NCBI RefSeq assembly: GCF_014698235.1
Contig: NZ_JACJSP010000002.1
Location: 310,001 to 374,000 of the forward strand
From: Limnothrix sp. FACHB-406
GTDB taxonomy: Bacteria > Cyanobacteriota > Cyanobacteriia > CACIAM-69d
Length of the DNA: 64,000 nt
Reading direction: 5' to 3'
In this document: positions 14,114 to 42,484 of the stretch, piece by piece
Layout of the letters: every line of letters starts with the position of its first letter
Numbering within the stretch: the stretch's first letter is position 1
Made by a program: the position numbers and the translations under genes
Notes under the pieces: model-generated
Told to the model about the DNA's origin: nothing
Databases searched by the model: none
Seen by the model: the letters and a program-made list of their open reading frames with translations, nothing else

Positions 14114-15194
14114 TCAAAAAGCACTCCTGAAGCAATGGTTTGGTGTTTCTAGATACGTCTACAACGCCACGATCAAACATCTTCAGGAACCGGGAACCAA
14201 AGCCAATTGGATGGCAGTTGCGCCCATCATCTTGGGTGCGCTTCCTGAATGGGCCAAGCCAGTTCCCTACCAGATCAAAAAGATTGCGGTCAAAGATGCT
14301 TGCACTGCCGTTCGAGAAGCAAAGAAAGGTTTCAAAAAAGACGGGCAAATTCGCAAGTGCCGTTTCCGCAGTCGCAAAGATCGACAACAAACGATCTACA
14401 TCCCCAAATCAGCCATCAGTGAAAACGGTGTCTATTACACCATTCTGGGAAAAGCAGCCCTGAAAGAATCAATTCCTGATGGCTTTAGTGATGGTCGGTT
14501 AACACTTGCCTATGGTGAGTATTACCTGATCACCTCAACAGAAGTGCAACCCATTCAGTCCGAAAACCAAGGGCGAGTGGTTGCCTTAGATCCCGGTGTC
14601 CGCACATTCATGACCTTCTTTGCTGAATCCTCCTATGGATGGATTGGCAATGACTCGAACTTGCTGATTCAAAAGCTGTGCTTCAAGCTGGATCGCCTGA
14701 TTTCCAAAATTACCAAGGCTAAATCAGCTCAAAAGCGTCGCCTTAAGAAAGCCGCTGATCGCCTGCGTTCCAAGGTGCAACACCTGGTGAAAGAACTTCA
14801 CCACAAAACCGCACGGTTTCTGACTGAAAACTTTGATGTGATCTTGCTACCCAGTTTTGAGTCCTCTCAAATGGTGAGCAAATCACGTCGAAAAATTAAG
14901 TCGAAAACCGTGCGGCAAATGTTGACCCTATCGCATTACCAGTTCAAGAGACATTTAGAATGGAAAGCTTGGGAGTTGGGCAAGATTGCTTTGACCAATA
15001 TCAACGAAGCCTACACCTCTAAAACCGTTTCGTGGACAGGTGAGATCGTCAAGATTGGCGGCTCTCGGGTCATCAAGTCGAAGGTTGATGGGCGGTCAAT
15101 GAATCGGGATCTAAATGGTGCTCGTGGGATTTTTCTACGGGCATTGGTTGATACGCCTTGGTTGAGAGACCACCTCAACTTATGCATTTGTTAG
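13956..15194 (+). CDS. tnpB: TnpB, RNA-guided nuclease of IS607 type, lacking the zinc-finger cysteines
   Basis: About 412 residues from a GTG at 13956; the frame is open back to 13611, but that part overlaps tnpA and looks non-native, so the start is uncertain. The catalytic RuvC residues are present: D in VALDPGVRTF, E in LLPSFESSQ and D in NRDLNGARG. The usual TSxxCSxCG...CxxCG zinc finger is replaced by AYTSKTVSWTGEIV and GGSRVIKSKVDG, with no cysteine. TnpB of this superfamily is known to be guided by an RNA from the element's right end. The stop codon lies within the right inverted repeat. Confidence 0.88.
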   Translation: MANSWFLTHLFTAQNPNSQRICSPSFTSSLVECPDSEVTGKRSRKIRIFLNPDQKALLKQWFGVSRYVYNATIKHLQEPGTKANWMAVAPIILGALPEWAKPVPYQIKKIAVKDACTAVREAKKGFKKDGQIRKCRFRSRKDRQQTIYIPKSAISENGVYYTILGKAALKESIPDGFSDGRLTLAYGEYYLITSTEVQPIQSENQGRVVALDPGVRTFMTFFAESSYGWIGNDSNLLIQKLCFKLDRLISKITKAKSAQKRRLKKAADRLRSKVQHLVKELHHKTARFLTENFDVILLPSFESSQMVSKSRRKIKSKTVRQMLTLSHYQFKRHLEWKAWELGKIALTNINEAYTSKTVSWTGEIVKIGGSRVIKSKVDGRSMNRDLNGARGIFLRALVDTPWLRDHLNLCIC

Positions 15195-17452: not shown

Positions 17453-17849
17453 GGGGGCATGGCGGAATGGTAGACGCTACGGACTTAAGACAATTGAGCC
17501 TCGGTTGAGAAATTGATCGAGTGGCAGCTCTCAAACTCAGGGAAACCTAAGGCACGGAACCAATTCTGGGACGTTGTTCGCAGATCACCCCGATCGCTAC
17601 GGCAATCCTGAGCCAAGCCGAAGGCACAAAAAGCTTACGGGCTTTTTCTTCGGAAGGTGCAGAGACTCGACGGGAGCTACCCTAACGTAACCAGCCGAGG
17701 GTAAAGGGAGAGTCCAATCTTCAACGCCAAACGGTCGATCGAGCAGTTTTGCTGACTCACGAGCCGAATTGTGCAGGGGCGAAAGCCACAGGAAGATGAA
17801 AATCCGTTGACCCTAAACGGTCGTGAGGGTTCGAGCCCCTCTGCCCCCA
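17453..17849 (+). tRNA. tRNA-Leu(UAA), interrupted by a group I intron
   Basis: The acceptor arms GGGGGCA (17453-17459) and TGCCCCC (17842-17848) pair perfectly, with discriminator A at 17849; CCA is not encoded. The exons are 17453-17486 and 17799-17849. After splicing, the anticodon arm reads ACGGA-CTTAAAA-TCCGT with anticodon TAA; the T-arm GAGGGTTCGAGCCCCTC and a long variable arm typical of tRNA-Leu are present. The intron splits the anticodon after its first U, the classic cyanobacterial position. Confidence 0.96.
17487..17798 (+). ncRNA. Group I intron of tRNA-Leu(UAA)
   Basis: 312-nt self-splicing intron with no ORF. Conserved core segments are recognisable: CTCAAACTCAGGGAAACC near 17532, AATCCTGAGCCAAGCCGAA near 17604, GGTGCAGAGACTCGACGG near 17656 and GGGAGAGTCCAA near 17707. 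The 5' splice site follows the U of GGACTT; the last base is the conserved G at 17798. It belongs to the subgroup shared by cyanobacteria and plastids, regarded as ancient and largely vertically inherited. Confidence 0.94.
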
Positions 17850-27782: not shown

Positions 27783-27800
27783 GCAGCGCAGAAGTCAAGC

Positions 27801-27824
27801 CATTGCCATTGCCATTGCCATTGC
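27801..27824. repeat. (CATTGC)4 hexanucleotide repeat
   Basis: Four perfect CATTGC units begin 18 bases after the stop codon of the hybrid kinase gene. Confidence 0.95.
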
Positions 27825-27830
27825 ATCGTG

Positions 27831-27956
27831 GCCTTGGACTGCTTGTCGGGATCGCTTGGATGGCTGGCATCACTCGCACTGCTGAATTGCCCCGCCTTGG
27901 ACTGCTTGTCGGGATCGCTTGGATGGCTGGCATCACTCGCACTGCTGAATTGCCCC
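27831..27956. repeat. Perfect tandem duplication, 2 x 63 bp
   Basis: 27831-27893 and 27894-27956 are identical. Each unit begins GCCTTGGACTGCTTGTCGGG. The identity implies a recent duplication or active homogenisation. The unit length is a multiple of three and stays open in several frames, but no start site or protein feature supports coding. Confidence 0.95.
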
Positions 27957-28240
27957 TTGGTTGAGCGGGTTGGTTCAGATCTGCCTCTGAATTAAGGCCG
28001 AGGGGCGTTGGGGGCTGCGATCGGGTGTTTTGCGATACTTGACCAGTGAAATGAAATCCATCAACGGGATCAGCGACTGGGGCCGAAGTCTGATGGATCG
28101 GTGATCCCGGGCAGAATGCCTAGAAAACCACAATGCGGTTTTGCTGTGCTATGAATCACAGCGATCGGGTAGTAATGGCCATACACTAAGAAACAGGGTG
28201 TCAGACCCCCTAAAGTCAACGCACTACCCTGCTAGTAACC

Positions 28241-29029
28241 ATGGCTGCTCGTCCTGCTTGTATTGCGCCCAACGACCTGCGCGCCCGCAGTTTGGAGTTG
28301 CTGAACGCCTATCGGGCCTGTCCCTCAACGGAACTGCGCAATCGCTTGGTTGAGCTAAACTTTGGCCTGGTGAAGAAAGAAGCGGCCCACTGGGTTGCCC
28401 AATGCCAGGAAAGCTACGAAGATCTGCTCCAAATTGGCAGCATTGGCCTAATTCGGGCGATCGAGCGGTTTGATGCTAGCAAGGGCAACGCCTTTAGCTC
28501 CTTCGCCCTTCCCTACATTCGGGGCGAAATTCAGCACTACCTCCGTGATCGCAGTAGTTCAATTCGGATTCCTCGCCGCTGGTTGGAACTCCAGCAGCAA
28601 TCCGCCACCATCACCCGCAACTTACGGGATTCACTCGGCCGCCAGCCCAATGATTGGGAAATTGCGGAAGCTCTCGGGATTGAGCTGAGTGAGTGGCAGC
28701 ATGTGGAGCTGGCTCGTCAAAATCGATCGCCCCTTAGCCTGGATGCGCCGGTACGCAGCGACGAAGAGGAACCGTCATCCTTGGGGGACACGCTCCCCGA
28801 TCGTAAATATCGCAGCTTCCAACTGGCCGAAGAAGACCGCCTGCGTTTGAACCAAGCCTTGGTCAAGCTAGAAGAGCGCACTCGCCAGATTCTAGAATTT
28901 GTTTTTCTCCATGACTTGACCCAAAAAGAAGTGGCCGATCGAATGGGGATTAGCGCTGTGACCGTTTCCCGTCGGGTGCGCAAGGGTCTCGAGTCCTTGA
29001 AGGACATGATGGAACCCGTTGACGATTAG
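28241..29029 (+). CDS. sigF: RNA polymerase sigma factor, SigF-type (group 3)
   Basis: Alternative sigma factor of 262 residues. Region 2 spans about 35-110 (NRLVELNFGLVKKEA, EDLLQIGSIGLIRAIERFD, FSSFALPYIRGEIQHYLRD), region 3 about 115-165 (RIPRRWLELQQ, GRQPNDWEIAEALGI) and region 4 about 200-258 (LTQKEVADRMGISAVTVSRRVRKGLESL). The absence of region 1 and the FALPYIRGEIQHYLRD pattern fit the SigF/SigB/WhiG class, which in cyanobacteria controls pilus and motility genes. A PilP-like gene lies 305 bases downstream on the same strand. The start ATG 28241 has no strong ribosome binding site. Confidence 0.9.
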   Translation: MAARPACIAPNDLRARSLELLNAYRACPSTELRNRLVELNFGLVKKEAAHWVAQCQESYEDLLQIGSIGLIRAIERFDASKGNAFSSFALPYIRGEIQHYLRDRSSSIRIPRRWLELQQQSATITRNLRDSLGRQPNDWEIAEALGIELSEWQHVELARQNRSPLSLDAPVRSDEEEPSSLGDTLPDRKYRSFQLAEEDRLRLNQALVKLEERTRQILEFVFLHDLTQKEVADRMGISAVTVSRRVRKGLESLKDMMEPVDD

Positions 29030-29082
29030 TTAATGATTAAGCGTTGACGATTAACCGTTGATGACTAACCCTTGACCACTCA
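29016..29082. repeat. Degenerate 14-bp tandem array containing the sigF stop codon
   Basis: Consecutive units: CCGTTGACGATTAG (the TAG is the sigF stop), TTAATGATTAA (11 bp), GCGTTGACGATTAA, CCGTTGATGACTAA and CCCTTGACCACTCA. Unit 1 is coding; the rest are downstream copies. Extra in-frame and out-of-frame stop codons are repeated with the unit. Confidence 0.85.
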
Positions 29083-29334
29083 GCGGCTCAGGTTGAACCT
29101 TTGGGTAATCACCTAGCCCCGTTCTGATCGCTTAGGAGTTGATCTCATCAAGCTCCAGAGGCCAGTTCTCAACCCGATTGAGGTCGCTTTCAAAGCAGCA
29201 TTGCCAAACCCGAGGCCAATCGGAGATCAGGACTCAGAAAACGAGACGATCGCCTAGCCATTGGTTACAATGCTGGGCAGCTCAGTCCCTTGGACTCAAC
29301 CATCCCGCGGACTCAACCATCGGAGAATTCACCT

Positions 29335-30180
29335 ATGCCCAGCCTGGTACGGTTTGGGGCAGCCGTAGCCCTGCTGGTGGCAGCCACCAGTTGTGGTGGC
29401 CCCACAGACACTGCAACCACTGACGAGGCCAGCCCAACTGCGTCCCCCGCCAGCGGCACGGATGCGCCCACTGCCACCGTGCCCAAGGCTGACTTCAAAT
29501 CACCCATGGTTGCCGGTCGCCCCAAGACGGCCGTACCCACCATCCAGCGGTTTATTCAGCCCACCAACATTGACGCAAGGGCCAAGCAAACCCAAACCGA
29601 AATTCAGCAAAATAGCAAGAACAGTCGGCGCGATCCCTTTGCGATTCCGCTGCAAGTGCAGCCCCTGGCCAAGTTGCCGGATGGCAGCCCTGTGGGCCCC
29701 AGCGTGACCCAATCTCCCCGACCGATTGCCATTCCCTCCCCCACTCGGCAAGAACCAGAAACCGATGTGGAAGGCCGCGATTTCCGAGGCTATCCACCGC
29801 CAACGCTGGTTGATCCGCCCAAGCCGCGGCCGGCAGTGCGTCGTCCCACGCCTGCCCGCTCTCCGGTGGCTGCGCGGCCGCAAGTGCCGCCTGTGACGGT
29901 TCCCAGCCAGCCGCCTGCGCCTCCTTCGCCCACGGATGCCCTCAGTTTGCGGGTGACTGGTGTGGTGCAAGTGGGCGATCGATTCCAAATCATTGTGCAA
30001 ATTCCCGGTGAGAACTCCGAGCGCTACGTGAATGTGGGCGATCGAATTGCCAATGGCCAGGTGTTGGTGAAGCGGGTAGAACTGAGCAAGACTCTGGATC
30101 CGGTGGTGATTTTTGAGCAATACGGCCAAGAAGTGGCGAAAAATGTGGGCGACAGTGCCCAACCGATCGCCATGCGTTAG
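29335..30180 (+). CDS. Putative exported PilP/GspC-like protein
   Basis: 281 residues from ATG 29335 (GGAG nine bases upstream); the open frame starts 15 codons earlier without such a signal. The N-terminus LVRFGAAVALLVAATSC is a signal peptide, perhaps a lipoprotein signal, though the residues before Cys are not an ideal lipobox. A long Pro/Thr/Ala-rich linker contains SRRDPFAIPLQ, like the RDPF motif of PilP. The C-terminal ~75 residues (LSLRVTGVVQVGDRFQIIVQ, YVNVGDRIANGQVLVKRV) resemble the small beta domain of type IV pilus PilP and type II secretion GspC. A pilus-assembly or periplasmic scaffold role is inferred; proximity to sigF fits. No other pil gene is nearby. Confidence 0.65.
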   Translation: MPSLVRFGAAVALLVAATSCGGPTDTATTDEASPTASPASGTDAPTATVPKADFKSPMVAGRPKTAVPTIQRFIQPTNIDARAKQTQTEIQQNSKNSRRDPFAIPLQVQPLAKLPDGSPVGPSVTQSPRPIAIPSPTRQEPETDVEGRDFRGYPPPTLVDPPKPRPAVRRPTPARSPVAARPQVPPVTVPSQPPAPPSPTDALSLRVTGVVQVGDRFQIIVQIPGENSERYVNVGDRIANGQVLVKRVELSKTLDPVVIFEQYGQEVAKNVGDSAQPIAMR

Positions 30181-30181
30181 G

Positions 30182-30349
30182 GATTGCTTCAGCAAGATCG
30201 CTCAAGCAATTGCCGAACCCAATTGGCCTAGCCAAATTTCCCTAACCCGATTTGCTCAGCCAGAATTGCCCAACCAGAATTGCCCAACCAGAATTATTCA
30301 GCCAAAATTGCTTAATCAAGTTTGCTGAACCAAGTTTGCTGAACCAAAT
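30182..30349. repeat. 12-unit degenerate 14-bp tandem array
   Basis: Twelve contiguous 14-base units start two bases after the stop codon of the preceding gene. Central copies are GCTCAGCCAGAATT, GCCCAACCAGAATT (twice), GCTTAATCAAGTTT, GCTGAACCAAGTTT and GCTGAACCAAATTT; the rough consensus is GCYNAACCARAWTT. The first three units are the most diverged. The period is not a multiple of three, so it is not coding. Confidence 0.9.
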
Positions 30350-30562
30350 TTGCCTGACGGTCTGTTATCAAATTTCTAAAACCCTGATGTTGTTGTTTGG
30401 GTGACTGGTGGCTGCTGATGGTTTTGGGTATCCGCAGTTCCCGACTCTTCATGGTTAAAGGCTGTGGAGAGAGTCCTCGGGTGCTCAAGGTTTAGAACGG
30501 TTCAGCGATGGTTGAGCCACGCATCCGAGCGAGGAAGAAGTGAACCAGAAAGGAGTGAGGAC

Positions 30563-42106: not shown

Positions 42107-42183
42107 AAGTCTCTTGCTGGCGGCGATATTTGGGGGGCTGTTGGCCCCCTGCCAGCCAATCTGGTCTTTTGAGGTGGCTGATT

Positions 42184-42356
42184 AGACCTCTTGCACGAAT
42201 CAGCTCGTTGCCCTCATCCCCCAACCCCTTCTCCCAAGGTGGGCGAAGGGGAGCCAGAACTGCTGGGTTACGGCGATCTCGTGGCGGGTGATCAAGTCCC
42301 TCTCCCGACTTGGGAGAGGGATTTAGGGTGAGGGTCTTGATTAATGCAAGAGGTCT
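42184..42356. mobile_element. MITE-like element with perfect 12-bp terminal inverted repeats
   Basis: AGACCTCTTGCA at the left end is matched exactly by TGCAAGAGGTCT at the right; ATT flanks both sides (42181-42183 and 42357-42359), consistent with a 3-bp target duplication. Subterminal sequences (CCCTCATCCCCCAACCCC and, inverted, the GGGATTTAGGGTGAGGG side) continue the imperfect inverted repeat with CCTTCTCCCA / TGGGAGAGGG stems. 173 bp, no ORF. The termini resemble those of IS5-type cyanobacterial insertion sequences, from memory, so an IS could mobilise it in trans. Confidence 0.8.
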
Positions 42357-42484
42357 ATTGGGCCAAATTAGGCAACCCCAATCCATCGCCGCCAGGGCTG
42401 TAACCAGCAAGGAATTGATCAAAAAAGGGATGAATCCAATAAAGAATTCAGAAATCAAAAATAGAGCAGTAAAAATAGAGCAGT

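Follow-up and report, generated by a model that had tools for sequence, protein, structure and literature searches.

The sigF locus and the array at its 3' end

The window, by which we mean the whole stretch of 64,000 nucleotides analyzed here, corresponds to positions 310001-374000 of contig C2 in the genome of a Limnothrix-group cyanobacterium (G000). Its sigF gene (Table 1) encodes a protein that matches the NCBIfam model NF005644 ('RNA polymerase sigma factor SigF') with 404.3 bits against a cut-off of 261, and in which sigma-70 regions 2, 3, and 4 are matched by Pfam. Between a gene for a hybrid histidine kinase and sigF lie 289 nt (27783-28071) that are missing from G001, a genome of the same genus; this segment contains a perfect 63-bp tandem duplication (27831-27956) and the sequence GCCATT repeated 4.3 times.

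The 3' end of sigF is the beginning of a degenerate array of five units (29016-29082), with unit lengths of 14, 11, 14, 14, and 14 nt; the first unit consists of the gene's final 11 coding bases plus its stop codon. Tandem Repeats Finder (TRF) reports it at 29016-29076 with a period of 14, 4.6 copies, 72% matches, and a score of 59. When the region 28976-29334 is compared to itself, the highest number of matches over 36 positions at a single lag is 28, found at lag 14, and none of 5000 dinucleotide-preserving shuffles reached this value (shuffle maximum 24, mean 17.7). TRF and the shuffles thus agree on head-to-tail copies beyond chance, as in a minisatellite-type array. They confirm what the first-pass annotation had read from the letters, namely that a tandem array has its first unit in the last codons and stop of sigF. 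The 14 bases it had called coding do open the array, but the final three are the stop codon and only 11 are coding; likewise, the echoes of this unit that it listed are real, but the list lacks the 11-nt unit at 29030-29040.

The array stands alone in its genome. No second complete copy was found there, the other DNA matches being 14-19 nt long with E-values of 1.9-3.6, and a search for plasmid homologues of the sigF region gave no match. The unit pattern, allowing up to one mismatch, occurs 49 and 48 times in the own genome, fewer than the 67 and 61 occurrences of the reversed control. A dispersed repeat family (REP- or MITE-like) was rejected on these grounds, the array having a single full genomic match and its pattern falling below the control. 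A heptamer repeat (STRR) of the TAACTGA type was also rejected, as the period is 14/11 and not 7 nt.

Table 1. Features of the sigF region (positions within the window).
Feature	Position	Strand	Description
sigF CDS	28241..29029	+	ORF; 262 aa; ends ...MMEPVDD-TAG
Unit 1	29016..29029	+	CCGTTGACGATTAG; 11 coding bases + stop TAG; sequence, TRF array
Unit 2	29030..29040	+	TTAATGATTAA; shortened, 11 nt; coincides with 11-nt indel relative to G001
Unit 3	29041..29054	+	GCGTTGACGATTAA
Unit 4	29055..29068	+	CCGTTGATGACTAA
Unit 5	29069..29082	+	CCCTTGACCACTCA; most decayed of the five
TACAAT block	29238..29289	+	-10-like TACAAT at 29266-29271; conserved in three Limnothrix-group genomes (alignment)
Second tandem duplication of the sigF spacer	29286..29321	+	Period 17; unrelated to the sigF array
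Downstream gene	29335..30180	+	281 aa; no NCBIfam/Pfam match; N-terminus lipoprotein-like by sequence reading
Period-14 degenerate array 3' of the downstream gene	30208..30353	+	TRF; longer; sequence unrelated to the sigF array

The end of SigF in G000 and its relatives

The SigF protein of G001 is 99% identical to that of G000. Its gene ends in four units (CCGTTGACGATTAA, CCGACGATTAA, ACGTTGATGACTAA, and ACGTTGACCACTCA) with TAA as stop codon, and the alignment of both genomes places an 11-nt indel beside the sigF stop, at 29029, with the extra 11 nt in G000. Unit number thus varies between close relatives, as the first-pass annotation had anticipated: there are five units in G000 and four in G001 (one pair only), and the array is absent in G002 (SigF 88% identical), where the tail reads MPED.

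The suggestion that the repeats could affect the C-terminus of SigF or the end of its translation found no support, since the tail EPVDD is identical in G000 and G001 despite the different stop codons and unit numbers. A duplication across a stop retains its first copy intact and therefore leaves the protein end unchanged; by this geometry a gain of units should be unable to lengthen SigF, the upstream copy staying the coding end, and the identical tails agree with the argument. A phase-variable contingency locus, in which gain and loss of units would toggle the SigF C-terminus, could draw on the differing unit number of the two genomes and on a unit length not divisible by 3. On the other hand, the first unit alone is coding, a duplication over the stop leaves that copy unaltered, and in the 40 nt that follow the stop the downstream units have a stop codon in each reading frame. 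Changes in unit number do not alter the frame of either tail, and we regard such a switch as extremely improbable.

Alignment of SigF ends had been proposed as a way to see whether the terminal VDD and stop arise from the repeat. An end was obtained for 85 of 100 SigF loci (the other 15 were missed by the motif used), and these merged to 76 distinct ends, 6 from the family and 70 from outside. The last 12 nt of sigF are echoed at 11/12 positions in G000, at 10/12 in G001, and at 6-8/12 in four other family members, while the 70 ends from outside reach 5-9/12, about what shuffled downstream sequence gives. One acidic final residue is present in 27/70 of the latter and two in 19/70, with array echoes near chance. 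An origin of the tail in the repeat is therefore not required: acidic SigF ends are common without an array, and the gene end appears to have been the source from which the repeat was copied.

According to the first-pass annotation, a downstream sequence conserved in distant species would imply a functional site and not a duplication; for the array, such conservation was looked for and not found. A conserved regulatory site was rejected, as the array is absent in G002 and its echoes elsewhere are at chance. GACGAY-like sequence does occur 3' of the stop in G003, G004, and G005 and seemed shared on inspection by eye; at 7-8/12, which is the chance level, it was rejected as an ancestral repeat. 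It could represent a shared element and to that extent speaks against a neutral duplication, though its score is at chance.

RNA folding and promoter elements in the spacer

An 81-nt RNA starting at 29010 folds better than its shuffles in G000 (z -2.61, with 2 of 200 shuffles as good), and a 151-nt fold at the array has a z of -1.94. The core of the unit, CGTTGACG, is nearly self-complementary, which means that neighbouring units can pair, and the array could act as an RNA hairpin 3' of the stop, terminating or protecting the sigF transcript. The same region gives z -0.50 in G001 and 0.90 in G002, and nothing comparable is present in G003 or G004; a conserved RNA fold was rejected accordingly. 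The array sequence itself is not conserved in G002, and no intrinsic terminator (a G+C-rich stem followed by a T run) was found in 28900-29450. We consider a hairpin function unlikely. The fold in G000 nevertheless counts against a purely neutral reading, as it would be compatible with such a 3' role in this genome, with G001 and G002 lacking it. Rfam matches no RNA at the array, its matches in the window being restricted to tRNA and a group I intron. The intron lies at 17477-17739 (66.7 bits against a cut-off of 50).

The conserved element of the spacer is, by alignment, the TACAAT block, which is probably the promoter of the next gene. Its core, GGTTACAAT or GGTTAGAAT, is also present in G003, G004, and G005. 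The consensus scan did not score the block and found no full-consensus sigma-70 promoter in 28900-29450. The repeats could govern the downstream gene, either as binding sites or, with TTGAC every 14 nt, as -35-like elements, since TTGACG, TTGATG, and TTGACC recur among the units and a GACG-like sequence lies closely 5' of the -10-like TACAAT in G003 and G005. In the window, however, about 184 nt separate the end of the array from the conserved TACAAT downstream, the block is conserved in G002 where the array is absent, no sigma-70-like site was detected, and the rest of the genome has no enrichment of the unit. We consider such a control of the downstream gene very unlikely, slightly more so than a hairpin.

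Short tandem duplications in the G000 genome

The genome-wide sample of G000 comprised 20 stretches of 20 kb and the window, together 464 kb with 297 called genes and 102,307 bp of intergenic DNA. Genes were called with a simple purpose-made caller (73% coding in G000), and the intergenic fraction includes some missed genes. First-order Markov resamples served as shuffles for the counts of events, of exact duplications, and of events per lineage, and dinucleotide-exact shuffles were used for the lag profile and the sigF test.

The intergenic DNA contains 161 tandem duplications with a period of 11-16 nt, against 3.3 in shuffles, or about one event per 600 bp. Most have two copies (116), followed by three (41), four (3), and five (1). 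Self-matching by lag is low at 5-8 nt and climbs steeply at 11-16 nt (271 vs 0.6 at lag 14; 309 vs 1.6 at lag 15). Detection is stricter for periods <10, and the lower edge of the size range thus rests on the counts of exact duplications. These amount to 13 observed vs 4.0 shuffled at 8 nt, 12 vs 0 at 9 nt, 13 vs 0 at 11 nt, 10 vs 0 at 14 nt, and 3 vs 0 at 16 nt; each length from 9 to 15 nt has 9-13 of them against 0-0.2 in shuffles, and lengths of 17-40 nt have one altogether. No excess was found at 7 nt in the intergenic DNA (9 vs 8.2). At 6 nt there are 53 vs 27.6, an excess that falls outside the range of 8-16 nt and counts against it. In coding sequence, periods of 12 (27 events) and 15 nt (21) dominate over 9 (11) and 18 nt (1). 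These are the in-frame sizes of the same range, and protein repeats may contribute to them.

Arrays with periods of 10-17 nt cover 0.4-2% of the last 60 nt of genes, 8% of the first 20 nt after stops, 10-12% at 20-100 nt after stops, and 3-8% beyond. Upstream of starts, the coverage is 3-9%, with 3% immediately before them. Thirteen of the 297 stops lie inside duplications, in 12 arrays with unrelated units, one array being common to two convergent genes; the sigF stop is not among the 13, owing to its 11-nt unit. At 4.4%, this fraction exceeds the coverage immediately before stops (2%) and falls short of that immediately after them (8%), and a special link between arrays and stop codons was rejected. 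Given the 3' density of arrays, a stop within a first unit is therefore expected without such a link. The density of events with periods of 11-16 nt in G000 is 25.7 per 10 kb between convergent genes, 15.2 between genes in the same direction, and 13.0 between divergent genes, an order with which smaller samples of other genomes disagreed. The concentration at 3' ends may come from weaker constraint or from a process tied to gene ends. The G+C content of the arrays is 41%, compared with 50% in intergenic DNA overall.

Two further loci deserve mention. At 14780-14800 of stretch L118, one 14-nt tandem duplication holds the stop codons of two convergent genes. A dispersed MITE-like repeat of about 175 nt is present in the window at 42183-42361, where it adjoins a period-14 array; it also occurs twice in stretch L114 (686-868 and 7770-7950) and in some 35 copies in G001.

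Indels between close relatives and distribution among lineages

The comparison of G000 and G001 covered 76 kb of aligned sequence, including 16.8 kb of non-coding DNA, and the 11-nt sigF indel was added by hand. Among the non-coding indels, 9 are 4-7 nt long, 11 are 8-10 nt, 18 are 11-16 nt, 1 is 17-20 nt, and 5 are 21-40 nt. An adjacent copy of at least 70% identity accompanies 8 of the 18 indels of 11-16 nt and 2 of the 11 indels of 8-10 nt, so not every 11-16-nt indel is a clean duplication. Of 31 arrays, 9 overlap an 8-32-nt indel, whereas 6-8% of randomly placed intervals do.

The lineage survey included 27 genomes, with small samples (40-120 kb each) beyond G000. It omits intergenic stretches >1500 bp or with runs of N, which reduces the events in G000 from 161 to 147. 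Per 10 kb of intergenic DNA, events with periods of 11-16 nt number 16.2 in G000, 11.9 in G001, 16.8 in G002, 19.2 in G013, 19.4 in G028, and 9.9 in G010. Genera of the same family have fewer (4.4 in G003 and 5.3 in G004), and the remaining 19 sampled genomes range from 0 to 5.9, with 0 in G016, G023, G030, G050, and G057. Escherichia coli K-12 has 1 event in 18,337 bp. Four sampled lineages (the Limnothrix group and those of G010, G013, and G028) are thus rich in these duplications, while most other cyanobacteria and E. coli have few or none. The pooled loci of other cyanobacteria have a peak at 7 nt (19) and a smaller group at 10-16 nt.

Origin of the array and of the wider pattern

The sigF array is very probably a young and decaying tandem duplication that is selectively neutral, and as such an ordinary instance of a lineage-specific process acting across the genome. 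About 14 nt over the last codons and the stop of sigF would have been copied head to tail, after which the array would have gained or lost further units. The copies 3' of the stop, being non-coding, would have drifted freely, while the first copy was presumably kept under selection as the end of the protein, leaving the SigF tail unaltered. The lineage appears to make tandem duplications of about 8-16 nt often, and those that survive would do so mainly in unconstrained sequence, most densely 20-100 nt after stops, so that a few duplications include a stop. The comparison behind this reading includes one close relative.

The molecular step is most likely slipped-strand synthesis or the re-ligation of a short displaced flap or patch, with the loop or flap bounded at about 8-16 nt. 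The narrow size range would argue against slippage with an unlimited loop and for a step that handles a strand of this length. Ku-dependent end-joining of staggered breaks was judged unlikely, as no Ku gene was found in any of the 16 genomes searched (six with high and ten with low density), high and low alike; a control search over 14 genomes did find Ku in Bacillus subtilis. Slippage or flap re-ligation is thus the likelier route. Duplications are less frequent in genera of the same family and absent from several lineages of similar base composition, which would point to a repair or replication trait that varies between lineages. We tentatively propose, with the balance leaning somewhat against, that an undescribed mutational process producing bounded tandem duplications of about 8-16 nt operates in the Limnothrix group and the lineages of G010, G013, and G028, and that such a trait should explain it.

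Levinson and Gutman reportedly described in 1987 how tandem duplications form by slipped-strand mispairing. Like slippage minisatellites, the arrays of G000 have head-to-tail units and drifted copies, differ in unit number between relatives, and are mostly non-coding or in-frame within genes. Repeats made by slippage generally fall steadily in number with length; the sizes in G000 are instead confined to a narrow range of about 8-16 nt, and lineages differ strongly. For rice, Vaughn and Bennetzen are said to have put forward in 2014 a patch-mediated model of short tandem duplication. The rice and mammalian cases resemble ours in that short tandem duplications arise in a single step as a mutation class. 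In mammals, small tandem duplications form at breaks with overhangs by a route that largely needs Ku-type end-joining (PMC8355091), unlike the 16 genomes tested here, which have no Ku.

The tandem repeats of Borgs in archaea are fast-evolving, independently arisen, and either intergenic or located in genes with units divisible by 3, and arrays can begin within the end of an ORF (PMC9879509). The arrays of G000 resemble them in these respects. Borg arrays, however, have more units, and these are perfect (18-21 nt in the examples, with six or more copies), whereas 116 of the 161 events in G000 have two copies and units are often degenerate. TAACTGA heptamer repeats are reported from intergenic regions of Beggiatoaceae and cyanobacteria (PMC4679880; see also the SPADE survey, PMC6344855). 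They too are intergenic direct repeats in cyanobacteria, and some overlap upstream stops and carry stops in three frames. Unlike those of G000, which has no 7-nt signal and whose units are unrelated between loci, these repeats have 7-nt units of one shared sequence. PMC8619395 deals with units of 1-6 nt. In the open-licence literature, judged mostly by titles or the beginnings of abstracts, no earlier account of tandem duplications confined to 8-16 nt in cyanobacteria came to light.

The array exists as described, yet at the sigF locus it is nothing out of the ordinary; taken alone it is minor, and it shows that a stop codon can be copied downstream with the protein left untouched. The genome-wide signature is more interesting and merits a survey. 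A sharp size range combined with a large difference between lineages is what a specific enzyme step might leave, unlike generic slippage. The wider pattern would explain part of the intergenic growth in such genomes, would caution against calling such repeats regulatory sites, and bears on the origin of short tandem duplications in bacteria that lack Ku.
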